From positions 1-64,000 of the forward strand of contig LNFQ01000005.1 in assembly GCA_001567165.1 (NCBI GenBank): a stretch of DNA of 64,000 nt. Direction: 5' to 3'. The number at the start of each line of letters is the position of its first letter. Positions within the stretch are counted from its first letter, which is position 1. Positions 8,611-21,947 of the stretch are shown in pieces. A model generated the notes under the pieces. That model was not told where the DNA came from and ran no database searches. It saw only the letters and a program-made list of their open reading frames with translations. Made by a program: the position numbers and the translations under genes. The stretch is from Bacteroidetes bacterium OLB11. GTDB taxonomy: Bacteria > Bacteroidota > Bacteroidia > Chitinophagales > Chitinophagaceae.

Positions 8611-9534
8611 TTAATATACCCACATATCATGTTCTAAATTGAATATTTTTTCTTTAATTTCTTCTCCTTTATTCAAGATATCAATTCCTTTCTTACTTCT
8701 CATGATATCTTCTTGTAATGGATTATCTAAAGTAGATTTCAATACATAACTAGAGAACATTCGTTTTTCAAAAAAGTCATCCCATGTGATGCGAAATACA
8801 TCATTTTCAGGGTTATAAACTTCATATTGAACGTTAATTGGTCTTAAATCGTCTGGATAGTATAACCAGAATAAAGGTAATGAAGCTCTAAAAGAACCAT
8901 CTTCATTCTTTTTATCAAAATAAGGAGCGATTCCAATAATACGAACAACCATTCTGCCTAAATTTTTATCAAAAATCCAATCCTCTTTTAATCTAAATTT
9001 CGTAATATCATCAGGGTTAAAAGATTTGTTGATTATTACCTGAGAATAGCTACCATCTGGGTTTTCGACCTCAGTAGTATCTGGCGGAGGAACTAATTTA
9101 TTCATTACGTCTTCAAGAGTAAGTGGCACACTAAATCTATCATCAGCAAAAGCAGTAATTTTACCACTTTTAATAGCATGAATTAAAATTTCAATGTACA
9201 TCCCACCACCTGAACGTTCATCACCAGGATATCTGAAAGGAAAATTTTGTTTTTGACGAATATCAATTTCTCTCCAAACTCTTTTTTTCCATAATACATC
9301 TGCTTCACGGATAGGTTGCCATGGAACTAAATAATTGTCATGCTTTACAAGATCGATTGCACCATCCGCTCTTAAGGAACTTTTCCATTCATCAGATACA
9401 ATCCCAAGTTCTCCACTTCCAACATTAGGGTCTATATTGCTTCCGGGAGGTGGAACTCCGGGTTGAGCGAAAGCATTAGATGCTGTTAGTAGCGAGATTG
9501 TGACAAACAATTTAATATTTTTTGTAATTTTCAT
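8611..9534 (-). CDS. gldN: GldN, type IX secretion/gliding motility outer-membrane-associated protein
   Basis: 307 residues with a signal peptide ending SNAFAQ. GldN/PorN forms, with lipoprotein GldK/PorK, a large periplasmic ring tethered to the outer membrane in T9SS. Family landmarks are the early block VLWKKRVWREIDIRQKQN followed by YIEILIHAI and the later PLFWLYYPDDLRPI. It is the last gene of gldKLMN, and the 30-base gap from gldM suggests one transcript ending at the hairpin at 8567-8597. The reading frame is intact. Confidence 0.95.
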   Translation of the reverse strand: MKITKNIKLFVTISLLTASNAFAQPGVPPPGSNIDPNVGSGELGIVSDEWKSSLRADGAIDLVKHDNYLVPWQPIREADVLWKKRVWREIDIRQKQNFPFRYPGDERSGGGMYIEILIHAIKSGKITAFADDRFSVPLTLEDVMNKLVPPPDTTEVENPDGSYSQVIINKSFNPDDITKFRLKEDWIFDKNLGRMVVRIIGIAPYFDKKNEDGSFRASLPLFWLYYPDDLRPINVQYEVYNPENDVFRITWDDFFEKRMFSSYVLKSTLDNPLQEDIMRSKKGIDILNKGEEIKEKIFNLEHDMWVY

Positions 9535-9564
9535 ATATTAAAGATATAAACTTTTTTTAATATT

Positions 9565-11193
9565 TTAAGAATTTATAACATAATTTAATGCACCTATAGT
9601 ACGAGTAGTTCCATCAGGTCCTTTTGCTTTGATGTTTTCAATAAACAAACGATCTCCAGGTTTTAGTGATTGCATGATATCAATCACATCAGGTTTTGCA
9701 TTCGCACCTGATAGATACATATTATTAGAATGGGCTTCTTTTGATTCTCCGCGTTTTGGTGTATAGAATAAGTCGAAAGAAATCACTTCAAACTTCGCAT
9801 CAAAATCAAAGTTATCTAATTTTGCAAATACAGCAACTTGAGCTTTCAACGCATTAGCGGCAACAGCTCCACCACGACTATTTGCACATAAAGGATATGG
9901 ATCAGGAATTCTTTTAATACGATATTCGAATGTCCCAAAAGATTGAGAAGATCCATCACCTTTTTTACCACTTAAAGTAATTTTTGCTTTAGTACCTTGG
10001 TTTCCAGTTGGTCTAACAATATATTTGTTAACTCCATCTGCTTTGGTTAAAGTACACTCTTCAGCTGAATAGCTAAGGCTACTTGCAGGAATACCAGATG
10101 CTGAAAAAGTAATTGGATTATCAACACCAATATAAAATACATTCATTTTATCAAGTGAAATACTTGCTTGCGGTTCGCCTACAAAATAAGTTGCGGTTTG
10201 AGTAAATGTTTTGGGTTGATTGTTATTTGGATCTATAAAAGTTCCTGTTACTGTAATTTTTTGTTCTCCTTTTCCTGATGCAGTTGTTGAGTAAGTTGCG
10301 ATGCCGTCTTTTACAGCAACATTAGCTCCATTTACTCGAATAGTAAGGTTATTTGAGCTTTTATTGAAAGCTCCTAACATTACATTTGCTGTGTATTTTT
10401 CGCCTGGAAGTAAGTAATTGTTTGGAGAAGATACAAGAAGTGCATAGTCGGGCAAAGGAATAATTTTATTTCTTCTTTCACCTGTTGCTAACCCCCAAAG
10501 GTTATCCATCACCATTGATTCAGAACTTTTTACGTCATTGATATATTTATCAAGAATTGTAACAGCCCCTACAGCTGGTACCATATGAAAGTTTCCATAA
10601 GCCCAGTCTTTTGCTTCGTTTGTTTCATCTTCAATTATATCAAAATTGATAGGGAAAAGTTTTTCAATTGCAGGATTTTTATCTTTTATAGATTCGAGTT
10701 TATCTCCATCTGTCGGAACTAATGCGGCAATTTCTTGAATAAATTTTTCAAGTTTACTCTTCATTTCAGGGCCTTTTTTATCATGCTCAATCATTACAGC
10801 TGTTGCAGCATCCAAATCTTCAGGACGTTCTATCAACCCACTGCCGGGGTTAATTCCTCCTGCTCTTTCTACGATTAGTTTTTTATATTCTTCTAATGAA
10901 TTAGTCATTTCTAAGGACAATTGAGATGCTTTTTCTAATAGAGGTTTATAATCGTTTAATTTTTTAATTTTTTCTGGATTTCTTTTTATCTCTTCGTTTT
11001 CAAAAAGTTTATTGTATTCATCAAGGACAGTTTTGTTTTTCTCAGTTATATTTTTACTTGATAATACAAGACTTTTATCCACTATTTTAAAAGCATTTAG
11101 AATTTCACTTGATACGTTCATCGCTAACAATGCTGTCAGCACAAGATACATCAAGTTAATCATCAACTGCCTTGGTTCTTTAGGTAAAGACAT
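9565..11193 (-). CDS. gldM: GldM, T9SS motor/periplasmic shaft protein
   Basis: 542 residues. A cytoplasmic start (SLPKEPRQLMINLMYLVLTALLAMNVSSE) gives the single inner-membrane helix that inserts in the GldL pentamer; it carries the conserved RQ-MINLMYLVLTA segment of the family. The remainder is periplasmic: a helical D1 domain (about 40-220), then beta-rich Ig-like domains D2-D4, ending in the block with LKPGDRLFIENIKAKGPDG and IGALNYVINS that contacts the GldKN ring. It couples proton flow through GldL to the outer-membrane ring. A distant copy of its C-terminal domains is encoded separately at 18257-18928. Confidence 0.95.
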   Translation of the reverse strand: MSLPKEPRQLMINLMYLVLTALLAMNVSSEILNAFKIVDKSLVLSSKNITEKNKTVLDEYNKLFENEEIKRNPEKIKKLNDYKPLLEKASQLSLEMTNSLEEYKKLIVERAGGINPGSGLIERPEDLDAATAVMIEHDKKGPEMKSKLEKFIQEIAALVPTDGDKLESIKDKNPAIEKLFPINFDIIEDETNEAKDWAYGNFHMVPAVGAVTILDKYINDVKSSESMVMDNLWGLATGERRNKIIPLPDYALLVSSPNNYLLPGEKYTANVMLGAFNKSSNNLTIRVNGANVAVKDGIATYSTTASGKGEQKITVTGTFIDPNNNQPKTFTQTATYFVGEPQASISLDKMNVFYIGVDNPITFSASGIPASSLSYSAEECTLTKADGVNKYIVRPTGNQGTKAKITLSGKKGDGSSQSFGTFEYRIKRIPDPYPLCANSRGGAVAANALKAQVAVFAKLDNFDFDAKFEVISFDLFYTPKRGESKEAHSNNMYLSGANAKPDVIDIMQSLKPGDRLFIENIKAKGPDGTTRTIGALNYVINS

Positions 11194-11253
11194 TCTTTTT
11201 TTTGTTTTAGCTTATTAATTTAATATTTGAATTACAATTATAGATGCTTCGTT

Positions 11254-12101
11254 CTATTTGCCTTGCATAGCAGTTAGCATGTTGCCATATACTTGGTTTA
11301 ATGTACCTAAGTTTTTAGCAAGTAAAGCAACTTGTTCTTTGCACTTTCCCTGCATTTTTCAGAGCTACTTTGCATTGTATCAGTGGTATTAACTAAAGTA
11401 CTGAAAAATTTGTTCATTGCTTTCAAATGGCTATTAGCATCATTTAATTCAATTTCATATATTTGGTTTAGAGAGCTTAAATTCTTAGTTAGTGTAGAAA
11501 CTTGTGAGTGAAATCTTGCAGTTTCATCTGCTGCATCGTTAAAAGAAGCTAGTGTATTTGCTGCCCCCATGAATGTATCTTTCATTTGACTCAAAGCACT
11601 TGTTGCTTCTTTTGCTTTATTAGCATACTCATTTGTTGCTGCGGCAACATGAGTAATGTCTTTTACTTGATTTACTGTTTCACCAAATCGTTGAAAGTTT
11701 TCATTTAGTTTTTTCAAACTTGTTGGGTTTATGCTTGCTTCTTCAAGCATTTTGTCTAATTGGTTAGTTGCACCGCCACCACTACCTCCTGCAGTTGGAG
11801 CAACAATCCCTTGTCCAGGTACATATTTTACACCTTTTTTGTATGCTTCAACATGTGGGTTTTCATCTAAGTTTGGGTATAGTTTTTCCCAATAGTAGTC
11901 TTTGTGAGGTGGTAATATTCCTAGTAAAGCAAAAATGAAAGCTTCAACACTCATCCCTACAATTAGCATAGGACCTGCAATTTTCCAGTGTTCCAATTTA
12001 GCCAAAGCTCCAATTAATACTACGGATGCTCCAAGTCCAATGATAAGATTTTTTAAGCGTTTTCCTGATTTTGTTTCAAAAAATAATGATATTGATTTCA
12101 T
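11254..12101 (-). CDS. gldL: GldL, T9SS rotary motor inner-membrane protein (one frameshift near C-terminus)
   Basis: Two transmembrane helices near the N-terminus (about residues 15-35 and 40-62) form the proton-driven stator, with the family motif LEHWKIAGPMLIVGM; the glutamate in LEHW is the residue proposed to carry protons. A long cytoplasmic coiled-coil region follows. The original frame ends prematurely at 11307. Shifting by one base near 11335-11345 restores AKEQVALLAKNLGTLNQVYG and NMLTAMQGK, the conserved GldL C-terminus, with a stop at 11254-11256. Total is about 282 residues. Confidence 0.93.
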
Positions 12102-12143
12102 TTTCTATTTTCCTTTTTTTGTTTTTAGTTTAAATTATTTAGT

Positions 12144-13436
12144 TTATTTTTTTCTTTTTGGTGATTTATTTGTCAGTGCTGGAGATATATATTGTACAAT
12201 GCATCTAAATCCGATAAACGATTTTGCTGTATCTGCAAATTCATAATCTCTGTTGCTTACTTGAATAAAACTTGCTACATCTTTCCAACTTCCTCCTTTG
12301 ATTACTTTTCGTTTCCACCAAGTTGGGTCGGCTTCTTGCGTTTTCATTCTGAGTGATGGTGACATATCGGCGACATTATCATAAGTAGCCGCATTATAAG
12401 GGGACAATGTCCATTCAGCTACATTACCACTCATATTATATAAGCCATAATCGTTAGGCCAATATGCATCTGCTCGCACAGTGTAAAGTCCTCCGTCTGC
12501 ACTATAGTTACCACGTCCGGGTTTGAAATTTGCTAAGTAGCAACCTTTTTTATTCACAACATAAGGACCTCCCCATGGATAAGGTGATTGTGTTCTTCCT
12601 CCTCTTGCTGCCCATTCCCATTGTTCTTCTGTTGGAAGTCTAAATTCTCCTTCTAAATATTGTTTTTTAGAATCTTTATATGTTCTCCAATGTTTTGTTC
12701 TCCAATGACAGAATGCGTTTGCTTGATACCAATTCACACCAACCACTGGATAGTTATTGAATGAAGGGAACCAAAAATATTGGTGGGTGATTGGCTCATT
12801 ATATGAATATGAAAACATTTTCATCCAAACGGTAGTATCTGGATAGGCTACTACATCATACTTCATTAAATAGTCTGCACGATTTTGATTTCTACCTAAA
12901 GCCGATTCTCTAGCCATTTTATCATAATCAAATGCTTCATAATGATATTTAAGTTTAGAATTATCAAATTCTTTTTTGCCCCAAATACTTTCAGAAGCCG
13001 GTACATAATAAGCTGCCATTGCATCTTGAACATCTTCACTTTGCCATTTTATTTTCTTTTTCCAATCAACAATTTGGCTTCCATCTTGTAAATCTTTAAA
13101 GTCTCCTAATATAGTATGTGCTGTAGAATCTCGAACCCAGTCAACATATTGTCTATATTCTGAGTTTGTAATTTCGGTAGCATCCATATAAAATCCTACT
13201 AATTGTACTGTTCTATTTTTCACATCATTAGCACTCCTGACATCTTGGTCGCTTGCTCCCATGTGCATAACACCAGATGGCACCCACGTCATTCCTACGG
13301 GGATTGGGGTGTTCGTGTTTACTCTGTTTGTTGTTCCTACTAACTGACCATTTGAAGCTGTGGAACCACCGCCACATCCCCATGCTGTAACTATTAGGCC
13401 AAGAGCGAATAATCGTAACGAAAGTTGTTTTATCAT
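12144..13436 (-). CDS. gldK: GldK, T9SS lipoprotein of the outer-membrane ring
   Basis: 430 residues. The signal peptide ends in the lipobox VTAWGC, so the mature protein is anchored by lipidated Cys21. The body is a formylglycine-generating-enzyme (SUMF1) fold without catalytic function, as in all GldK/PorK: MTWVPSGVMHMGASDQD, EITNSEYRQYVDW, WYQANAFC, FRLPTEEQWEWAARGG, GNVAEWTLSPY and VIKGGSWKD are visible. It forms the ring with GldN. It is the first gene of the gldKLMN operon, with a TATATTTG -7 element 30 bases upstream. Confidence 0.95.
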   Translation of the reverse strand: MIKQLSLRLFALGLIVTAWGCGGGSTASNGQLVGTTNRVNTNTPIPVGMTWVPSGVMHMGASDQDVRSANDVKNRTVQLVGFYMDATEITNSEYRQYVDWVRDSTAHTILGDFKDLQDGSQIVDWKKKIKWQSEDVQDAMAAYYVPASESIWGKKEFDNSKLKYHYEAFDYDKMARESALGRNQNRADYLMKYDVVAYPDTTVWMKMFSYSYNEPITHQYFWFPSFNNYPVVGVNWYQANAFCHWRTKHWRTYKDSKKQYLEGEFRLPTEEQWEWAARGGRTQSPYPWGGPYVVNKKGCYLANFKPGRGNYSADGGLYTVRADAYWPNDYGLYNMSGNVAEWTLSPYNAATYDNVADMSPSLRMKTQEADPTWWKRKVIKGGSWKDVASFIQVSNRDYEFADTAKSFIGFRCIVQYISPALTNKSPKRKK

Positions 13437-16910: not shown

Positions 16911-17926
16911 TAAAGAATAGTCCATGTTTCTTTTCCAGCGATAAGAGCATCTAAATCTCCAGCCCCTTTTTCGTTTTTGACTGTTTCCAATTGCTCTTGC
17001 AACATTGTGTCATAACAAGGTCTATTGATTGCATAGATGACTCCAAATGGCCTTGGGAAAAATTGGCATCCTCATTGTGCCCAAACATTTTGGCTAATAA
17101 GAATGCTTTGGTTGAGTCTGTCTCATCATGAATCCACAAATCATTTTCGGAGTATTGCTCACCGATAGTTACAATTTTCGGCTGCAGTCCATCCAATAAA
17201 ATCCCTTTATTTTTATCAGCACCAAAAATCAATGGTTTTCCATGTTCCAGATAAATTGTGTGATCTGCTTTTGAACTCTTTTCTGAAAAAATTTCAAATG
17301 CTCCATCATTGAATATATTGCAATTTTGATAGATTTCTAAAAAGGAAGTTCCTTGATGCTGATGCGCTCTTTTTAGCATTTCTTGCATGTGTTTAGGGTC
17401 TCTATCCATTGTACGAGCAATAAAAGTTCCTTCAGAACCTAAAGCTAATGCAACAGGATTGAAAGGATTATCAATGCTTCCAAATGGAGTTGACTTGGTC
17501 ACTTTTTTGCACTTCGCTGGTTGGTGAATATTGCCCTTTTGTAAGCCCATATATTTGATTATTAAAAAGCAAAATTTGTATGTTGATATTTCTTCTTAAT
17601 AAATGAATTAAGTGATTGCCTCCTATGCTCAATGAATCTCCATCTCCGGTGACAACCCAAACGCTCAATTCAGGTCGTGATGCTTTTAATCCACTAGCGA
17701 TAGCTGTTGCTCTTCCGTGGATTGAGTGCATCCCAAATGTATCCATGTAATAAGGAAATCGCGACGAGCATCCAATACCCGATATAATGACAAAATTTTC
17801 TTTTGGAATTCCTAATGTTGGAAAAACTGTTTGTACTTGCTTCAAAATACTATAATCTCCACATCCCGGACACCATCTCACTTCTTGGTCGGTCGTAAAA
17901 TCTTTAGGGGATAAAGTGTCTATCAT
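16911..17926 (-). CDS. korB: 2-oxoacid:ferredoxin oxidoreductase, beta subunit (KorB type; two frameshifts)
   Basis: Thiamine-pyrophosphate subunit of the enzyme that decarboxylates 2-oxoglutarate or another 2-oxoacid and reduces ferredoxin. Start at 17926 ([10 protein letters not shown]). Visible are [34 protein letters not shown] and the TPP/Mg motif [12 protein letters not shown] with [17 protein letters not shown] shift in A6 near 17500-17506 continues with [20 protein letters not shown], and a second near 17060 gives [13 protein letters not shown] and AGKETWTIL, stop at 16911-16913. Restored length is about 338 residues. The alpha subunit normally just upstream is absent; 330 bases of non-coding DNA lie there. 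Confidence 0.85.
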
Positions 17927-18256
17927 GATAAAAAAATTGACTTCGCAAAAATACGAAGTAAAGTTCAAAGTTTTTGAAATGAATTTTATCCTTAACCTGT
18001 CGTCAGTTGATTTGTTGTTGTTTTTTTAATCCAAGTTTTCTCTATAATATCTGATTTTAAATTGATGATAATACTCTTAAAACCTTTATTCAAAATGCTT
18101 TCTCAATTTTTATATTCATTTATATAACATCCATTTATCTCAATTTCTAATTTGTAATCTATGCTATATGATGAATTTTAATAAAATTTTTTTTAATTTT
18201 AATTTACATTTGAACACTTATATATCAAATATAAACTACCTCATCCATTTTAATCT
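17927..18256. other. Gene-free region between korB and the GldM-C-like gene
   Basis: 330 AT-rich bases between divergent genes. No coding frame, RNA gene, repeat or clear TAnnTTTG element could be identified. It presumably holds the promoters of both flanking genes. Confidence 0.5.
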
Positions 18257-18928
18257 ATGCTAAAATTTTTTCCTATTTATTTACTACTCACATTCGCAAT
18301 GAGTCATTTTATTTTTTCACAAGTACACTTTTCGCAGCCCTTTTTTAAAAAACCTGATGAACCTATAGTTTATATTGATATTCCCAACTTTTTTTTGGTA
18401 CAAACTTCTAACGGTGAAAAAATAATTCAAGTAAATAGCAGTGAAGGGAATATCGAAAGGCTGTCTGACACTACTTTTAATTTGCACATTCGAAATGCCT
18501 CAATTTCAGGAATTACATTCACTTATAGTGTTTCTAAAAATGGGAAAATACAAAGAAATATACGTTATAAAACAACCTATTTGACAGCTATAGTACCTGA
18601 CATCTCAAAGCTACGATTAGGTGTAAAATCTAATAATAAAATTTCACTCAACGAATTAAAATTAATCAACAAGCTAGCTTTAGATGATAAAGATTTTTTA
18701 CTAAAGTTAAATTATAAAATAAACTGTACAGTGGTTTGCAAGCCCAATAAAAGTATTGAAAAATATAGCTTTCTTATTAGAAATAGTGATTTGAGTGGCA
18801 ATAATGATTTTCAAGAACTCCTTCAAAAACTTTCAAAAGGCGATAGAATAAAGTTTGACAATATTAAAATTGTAGGTAACGATGGGAAAAGTAAAAAGAT
18901 TGAATCTGCAATATATACAATAGATTAA
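18257..18928 (+). CDS. Secreted stand-alone protein resembling the GldM C-terminal domains
   Basis: 223 residues. The N-terminal hydrophobic stretch (residues 4-22, ending HFIFSQ) is a signal peptide, so the protein should be periplasmic or exported. The body has two beta-rich parts. The second (about 140-223) lines up with the end of GldM: LSKGDRIKFDNIKIVGNDG here versus LKPGDRLFIENIKAKGPDG in GldM, followed by IESAIYTID versus IGALNYVINS. The first part (PNFFLVQTSNGEK) resembles the preceding GldM domain. It lacks the GldM membrane helix and helical D1. It may bind the GldK/GldN ring; that is inference. A diverged GldM paralogue fragment under no constraint is the alternative, but the frame is clean. 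Confidence 0.65.
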   Translation: MLKFFPIYLLLTFAMSHFIFSQVHFSQPFFKKPDEPIVYIDIPNFFLVQTSNGEKIIQVNSSEGNIERLSDTTFNLHIRNASISGITFTYSVSKNGKIQRNIRYKTTYLTAIVPDISKLRLGVKSNNKISLNELKLINKLALDDKDFLLKLNYKINCTVVCKPNKSIEKYSFLIRNSDLSGNNDFQELLQKLSKGDRIKFDNIKIVGNDGKSKKIESAIYTID

Positions 18929-20296: not shown

Positions 20297-21947
20297 CTAT
20301 AATGATAAATTGAACTGTTTTTGGTTATCAATTGCTTCTTCATAACCTGCATCAGCGTGTCTTAAAATTCCCATTGCCGGGTCATTATGTAATACTCTTT
20401 CTAATCTTCGTTTGGCATCATCTGTGCCATCTGCTACGATTACCATACCGGCATGTAAACTGTACCCCATTCCTACACCTCCACCATGATGAAAACTAAC
20501 CCAGCTTGCACCACCGGCTGTATTTATCAATGCATTCAAAATTGGCCAATCTGCCACAGCATCACTGCCATCTTTCATACCTTCGGTTTCTCGATTTGGA
20601 CTTGCAACACTACCGCAATCTAAATGGTCTCTTCCTATGACAATTGGAGCTTTTAACTCGCCGTTTTTCACCATCTCATTAAATAGAAGTCCTGCTTTTT
20701 CTCGCTCTCCCATTCCTAACCAACAAATTCTTGCAGGCAATCCTTGAAAAGCAATTTTTTCTTTTGCCATATTCAACCATCTGATTAATCCTTTATTCTC
20801 AGGGAATAATTTTTTCAATGCTTCGTCGGTTTTATAAATATCTTCGGGATCGCCACTAAGTGCAACCCATCTAAAAGGTCCTTTTCCTTCACAAAATAAA
20901 GGTCTGATATAAGCTGGCACAAAGCCTGGGAAATCAAAAGCATTTTCAACGCCTCTTTTGTCATGAGCCTGACCTCTTAAATTATTTCCATAATCAAATG
21001 TAATTGCTTTCCTTTTTTGTAGTTCCAACATTAATTTTACATGGTGAGCCATTGTATCAAGACTTTTCTCAATATATTCGGCCGGGTTACTTTCTCTTAA
21101 TTTATTAGCTTCTTCCACGCTCATTCCTTCAGGAAAATATCCAACAAGTTCGTCATGTGCTGAAGTTTGGTCTGTCAATGTATCAGGAATAATATTTCGT
21201 TCAAGTAAACGACTTAATAAATCGACTGCATTGCAAACCACTCCAATACTTAATGCTTGTCCTTCTTCTTTTGCTCGAACTGCAGTATTGATGGCTTCAT
21301 CAATATCATAAAACATTTTATCGATATATCGAGTATCCAATCTTTTTTGAATACGCCATGCCTCCAAATTCTGCTGCTAAGCACACACCACCATTCATTG
21401 TAATGGCAAGGGGTTGAGCTCCCCCCATACCTCCTAAACCAGCTGTCACATTTAAAGTACCTATTAAAGTACCTTTGAAGTGGATATTTGCCAAGCTTAA
21501 ATAGGTTTCATAAGTGCCTTGCACAATTCCTTGAGAGCCTATATAAATCCAACTTCCAGCAGTCATTTGTCCATACATCATTAATCCTTTTGCTTCCAAT
21601 TCGCGGAAATGTTCCCAATTTGCCCATTTTCCGACCAGATTTGAATTTGCAATCAACACACGCGGAGCATCTTTGTGGCTTTTAAGGATTCCTACCGGTT
21701 TTCCGCTTTGCACCATTAAAGTTTCATCTTCGTTTAAGTTTTTGAGGGCTTCTAAAATTTTATGATAACTATCCCAATTCCGAGCTGCTTTTCCTAGTCC
21801 TCCATATACGATTAAATCTTCTGGCCGTTCTGCTACATCCGAATCTAAGTTATTTTGAATCATTCGGTAGGCCGCTTCTGCTATCCAATTTTTGCAAGTC
21901 AATTGATTTCCGGTTGGTGCGTTTATGGGTTTAAATGTTGTATTCAT
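20297..21947 (-). CDS. hutU: Urocanate hydratase (one frameshift)
   Basis: Converts urocanate to imidazolonepropionate in histidine degradation, using tightly bound NAD+. The N part from 21947 contains [38 protein letters not shown] and the loop [20 protein letters not shown]. The frame breaks near 21355-21365 and continues with [15 protein letters not shown], then [48 protein letters not shown] and [16 protein letters not shown]. The combined 550 residues is the normal family length. No hutH, hutI or hutG is in the window. This break is at GG rather than in a long A/T run. Confidence 0.92.

Follow-up and report, generated by a model that had tools for sequence, protein, structure and literature searches.

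A duplicated core part of the T9SS is already known in gliding bacteria, in the form of the GldN/GldO-type paralogy represented by GldO of F. johnsoniae. In the case described here a core part is likewise duplicated, but it is the tip of the motor, cut free of the motor itself. The closest described protein is GldM/PorM, the motor arm of the T9SS (PF12080, PF21602, TIGR03517). In PorM/GldM it is D4 that docks on PorN/GldN in the outer-membrane ring. In two-hybrid experiments the D4 domain of PorM was sufficient for the interaction with PorN, while D2 and D3 oligomerise and mediate dimerisation (PMC5790014). A crosslink forms between PorM S460C and PorN A241C (PMC12421860), and one D4 of the PorM dimer touches PorN, through a buried surface that is poorly conserved and with weak confidence metrics (PMC12421860, PMC12635249). 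For F. johnsoniae, "other extra orthologues of porM" have been mentioned with no detail (PMC5790014). The open-access literature that we searched, subscription papers lying outside it, held neither a described function nor any paper on stand-alone GldM C-terminal proteins, and on that basis the family presented below is apparently undescribed. Such modules bear on the way in which GldM's arm takes hold of the GldKN ring and drives it.

The gene studied here lies on the forward strand at positions 18257..18928 of the window, that is, the whole stretch of 64,000 nucleotides that was analysed, and encodes a stand-alone protein of 223 aa identified from its ORF, profile matches and predicted fold. 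Sequence analysis confirmed it as a predicted signal peptide followed end to end by a GldM D3-like and a GldM D4-like domain, and nothing else. The earlier note had proposed a secreted protein with its own signal peptide and no membrane helix, and both the sequence and the domain scans bear this out: residues 1-22 (MLKFFPIYLLLTFAMSHFIFSQ; 18257..18322, forward strand) form a Sec/SPI-like N-terminus, with cleavage after FSQ as judged by eye, and a hydrophobic segment beyond it was looked for and not found. The D3-like domain, Ig-like and of the GldM_3rd type, covers approximately residues 32-112 (18350..18592, forward strand; D3-D4 HMM, alignment and model, with the boundary set by alignment). 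The D4-like (GldM_4th) domain covers approximately residues 113-223 (18593..18925, forward strand; Pfam, BLASTP, D3-D4 HMM and alignment) and ends in the hairpin GDRIKFDNIKIVGNDGKSKKIE.

The second beta-rich segment had been said to resemble the end of GldM, and indeed the last 48 aa are 40% identical to the window's own GldM (BLASTP, E 3e-6 in a single comparison). The likeness is broader than had been stated, including D3 besides D4: a D3-D4 HMM built from 46 GldMs, with this protein left out, aligned its residues 37-222 with model positions 15-196 at 44.8 bits, and because both beta-rich segments are matched by this HMM, the first corresponds to D3 and the second to D4. Pfam, in contrast, gave a single match, to GldM_4th (PF12080) at residues 179-218 (E 3.2e-4), whose 21.7 bits fall below the gathering score of 24.6 and are borderline by Pfam alone. 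The D3 domain was not detected by Pfam GldM_3rd (PF21602) alone, the NCBIfam scan returned no match, TIGR03517 included, and the Pfam scan found no GldM_1st, GldM_2nd, M56, Por_Secre_tail or other C-terminal sorting domain. Searches with the single protein sequence yielded chance-level matches only in the PDB and no confirmed match in the genome contigs. A profile free of GldM sequences, made from the window protein plus three further stand-alones, retrieved the PorM chains 6ey5, 6ey6 and 7cmg over all of D3-D4 (E 1.3e-5 in 177,635 sequences), as well as GldM across the class. The likeness to GldM D3-D4 exceeds chance.

Structure prediction of the protein alone, also suggested earlier, pointed to PorM D3-D4 as the best match. 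The AlphaFold2 model, obtained from a shallow four-row alignment in which the window's GldM D3-D4 is one row, had a pLDDT of 69.6 and a pTM of 0.47 (the single-sequence model was poor, with a pLDDT of 43.6, and was set aside). With this model, the six best Foldseek matches were all PorM D3-D4 (E 6e-8), and VIA placed PorM/GldM rows on top (Z 10.0 and 9.8) with a high superposition rmsd of 7.5-8.5 A, probably because two domains were compared together. The rows beneath them (filamin, PAD4 and others, Z ~6-7) were rejected as common Ig-like folds and not relatives. The modest model supports the identification made from sequence and does not replace it.

Compared with GldM/PorM, with which it aligns end to end over D3 and D4, the protein lacks D1, D2 and the transmembrane helix, possesses its own cleavable-type signal peptide, and is encoded outside the gld operon, on the opposite strand. 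That operon spans 8611-13436 on the reverse strand and comprises gldN (8611..9534; TIGR03523, PF19841), whose product is the candidate partner, a canonical gldM of 542 aa with D1-D4 (9565..11193; TIGR03517 E 2e-86, Pfam D1-D4), gldL (11307..12101; TIGR03513) and gldK, for the FGE-fold ring lipoprotein (12144..13436; TIGR03525 E 7e-161). The window's genome holds two D3-D4 matches, GldM and the present protein, and one GldN, the canonical one, was found in its assembly, which is 92% complete.

Signal peptide, D3-D4, a length of ~205-245 aa and no other domain, all found in the present protein, define what we call the stand-alone GldM D3-D4 family, a name coined in this analysis. A survey of isolated GldM C-terminal proteins with signal peptides had been proposed, and it recovered many: while 287 of the 294 sampled Chitinophagaceae genomes have a D3-D4 match, about 97 of them, together with the window's genome, have at least two, the number per genome reaching seven. 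At least one short-frame stand-alone copy occurs in ~80/294 genomes, a tally read by hand from frame lengths, and the other additional copies come from a second full GldM or from a fusion. A strongly hydrophobic N-terminus is present in 75 of the 81 short-frame relatives. Stand-alones also turned up elsewhere in the class and, within the phylum sample, in further families; the viral contigs searched had none. The protein belongs to a widespread, multi-copy and fast-diverging family and is no isolated oddity. It has no close orthologue, the best identity being 31%; two full-length stand-alone relatives (26-31% identity) come from a single further genome of the genus, Chitinophagaceae bacterium SJ544 (G004), and group with the window protein in the tree with a support of 0.998 and long branches. 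One of these copies lies near urocanase, as does the window gene, and the two genes may therefore share the same locus. The tree, with low support at many nodes, suggests that stand-alones arose more than once. A single origin for all of them is unsupported, as one (L108) sits among the GldMs, with modest support, and the Flavobacteriaceae-like stand-alones cluster with the GldMs of that group.

The long branch and the identity of 29-31% to the nearest relatives would suit a decaying, functionless gldM duplicate, an explanation that we regard as very improbable, since the ORF is intact, with signal peptide and both domains, and its nearest relative, like the window gene, has urocanase close by. 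The gene order DapD-like, D3-D4, MscS-like (names assigned by eye) is kept between genera g2 and g46, which argues in the same direction for some members. Furthermore, in 11/11 pairs of stand-alone relatives, the window protein not being among them and some pairs being near saturation, dN/dS ranged from 0 to 0.42; with all values below 0.43, the family is under purifying selection.

The genomic context of the relatives offers clues to a partner. No constant neighbour emerged when the surroundings of the stand-alones were compared, and most of them, the window's included, are not adjacent to gldN or gldK. However, links to GldN and GldK, by fusion or by operon, were observed in three separate genera. 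On contig C30 of genome G499 (L168), ORFs of 408 and 395 aa carry an N-terminal signal peptide and D3-D4, as our protein does, and differ from it by a C-terminal GldN domain in the same chain. Their D3-D4 parts match a GldM-only profile (E 5e-9 and 9e-9), and beside them a 328-aa ORF has a C-terminal GldN and a D4-like N-terminal part, the latter judged by eye. The GldN call in the three ORFs rests on Pfam (E 2e-16, 6e-11 and 1e-13), as the analysis's own GldN profile may have included one of them. In G532 (L118:2223-5114), a mini-operon with gaps of 16, 16 and ~10 nt encodes, on the same strand, a 139-aa protein with a lipobox-like start, a signal peptide-D3-D4 protein, an FGE-fold GldK-like protein (E 4e-8) and a GldN-like protein (E 5e-32), with neither GldL nor the motor part of GldM. 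An ORF nearby (L118 6103-7113) is PorP/SprF-like by eye.

Two genomes of genus g46 (L088, L089) have a gene for a signal peptide followed by D4, in the order gldK-gldL-gldM-[SP-D4]-gldN, all on one strand. This product is also a secreted, motorless GldM C-terminal module, although it differs from ours in having D4 only, in lying between gldM and gldN, and in its GldN-like signal peptide (score 50-56 against that of GldN, the next best of 81 being 28). Its D4 resembles that of the GldM of the same operon, and such a gene would result if a tandem duplication had spanned the junction of gldM and gldN; its origin is probably independent of that of the window protein. By hand-made tallies, stand-alones are present in 21 of 38 genomes with at least two GldN and in 61 of 256 others (Fisher p 1.5e-4), while by genus the same co-occurrence (9/16 versus 27/79, p 0.16) is not significant. 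As to the multiplication of GldN itself, the sampled genomes of genus g273 (L169-L172, L176) have 4-9 GldN matches each and contain arrays of short GldN-like proteins (~195-245 aa) together with double-GldN ORFs (391-451 aa).

Our best explanation, which we hold tentatively and with slightly less than even confidence, is that the protein is a motorless module that binds GldN and acts either on the ring of the T9SS or on paralogues of that ring. The idea is partly supported, by context evidence from relatives, and the D3-D4 pair has further uses. The signal peptide would direct export to the periplasm via Sec, where D4 would bind GldN or a GldN-like ring subunit with no tether to the inner-membrane GldL motor. 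Occupying the GldN cleft in this motorless way, the protein would adapt, stabilise or modulate the GldKN ring. By eye, a hairpin corresponding in the alignment to PorM S460 is kept, but with different letters, PKRGES in place of the PNKSIE of the window's GldM. Because a single GldN was found in the window's genome, the canonical T9SS ring is the likeliest partner and would be the target there, whereas in other genomes the module has diversified together with GldN/GldK paralogues or become fused to them.

A narrower form of this explanation would have the protein act as a competitor or cap that leaves fewer GldM contacts active on the ring, braking gliding or secretion in a dose-dependent way. 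A docking domain carried without its motor, in a one-GldN genome where the site would be shared with GldM, fits such a role, which we nonetheless find unlikely because in L168 the module is fused to GldN, as one would sooner expect of a structural subunit than of a brake. In a broader form, which we consider rather doubtful, Bacteroidota would hold motorless hub complexes, in which a soluble GldM tip sits permanently on GldN (and GldK-like) rings or ring paralogues; if true, these would form a second class of envelope machine derived from the T9SS, with no GldLM motor, of which the window protein would be one part. Natural free D3-D4 modules, together with the D3-D4-GldN fusions, are ready tools for trapping and solving the GldM-GldN interface, and they make it conceivable that motorless GldM tips regulate or replace the motor contact.

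The further uses of D3 and D4 bring in another explanation, namely that Bacteroidota reuse the pair as an all-purpose Ig-like interaction module of the periplasm and that this stand-alone serves an envelope system other than the T9SS ring, such as one involving M56/BlaR1-type sensors or TonB-linked proteins. In several genera (L090-L099), proteins combine M56/BlaR1-type and N-acetylmuramoyl-L-alanine amidase domains, TonB_C or a TonB-receptor Plug, and GldM_3rd/GldM_4th; they have D3 and/or D4 in common with our protein but are large, inner-membrane and sensor-like, with D3/D4 as one among many domains. They bring pieces of envelope machines together in a single sensor-like chain and, speculatively, might act as decoys. 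Genus g268 (L091, L093) also has a signal peptide-D4 gene with a BlaI-like and M56 pair immediately downstream, D3-D4 or D4 is joined to HEAT-like parts, by eye, in L100, L101 and L078, and the seven D3-D4 matches reached in a genome and the variable neighbours agree with a general module. Since D3/D4 also occur in M56/BlaR1 proteins, a T9SS role should not be assumed for every stand-alone, some of which may serve other envelope systems. For the window protein we regard this as possible but not probable, given that the two D3-D4 matches of its genome leave no domain-carrying M56-type partner in sight, and given the GldN and GldK links described above, which favour the motorless GldN-binding module.

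Some minor observations were made along the way. A PF12080 match in G216 was discarded, the protein being TonB-receptor-like. A sequence labelled Bacteriophage sp. (MT839621.1, L087) was rejected as a phage gene: the contig is of bacterial type and has a run of porK-L-M-N-like genes, including a short PorM-like ORF seemingly without most of D1, and it looks mislabelled. In genome G003 the stand-alone D3-D4 gene (L079:5600-6700) looks frameshifted, and the search found neither GldN nor full GldM there; the frameshift could reflect decay following T9SS loss, or an assembly error. In the window, the gene is flanked, one per side, by two reverse-strand genes, a TPP-enzyme (2-oxoacid oxidoreductase beta-like) gene at 16951-17968 and a urocanase-like gene at 20297-21947, each split across two overlapping ORFs in different frames, the pattern expected from a single frameshift or an assembly indel.
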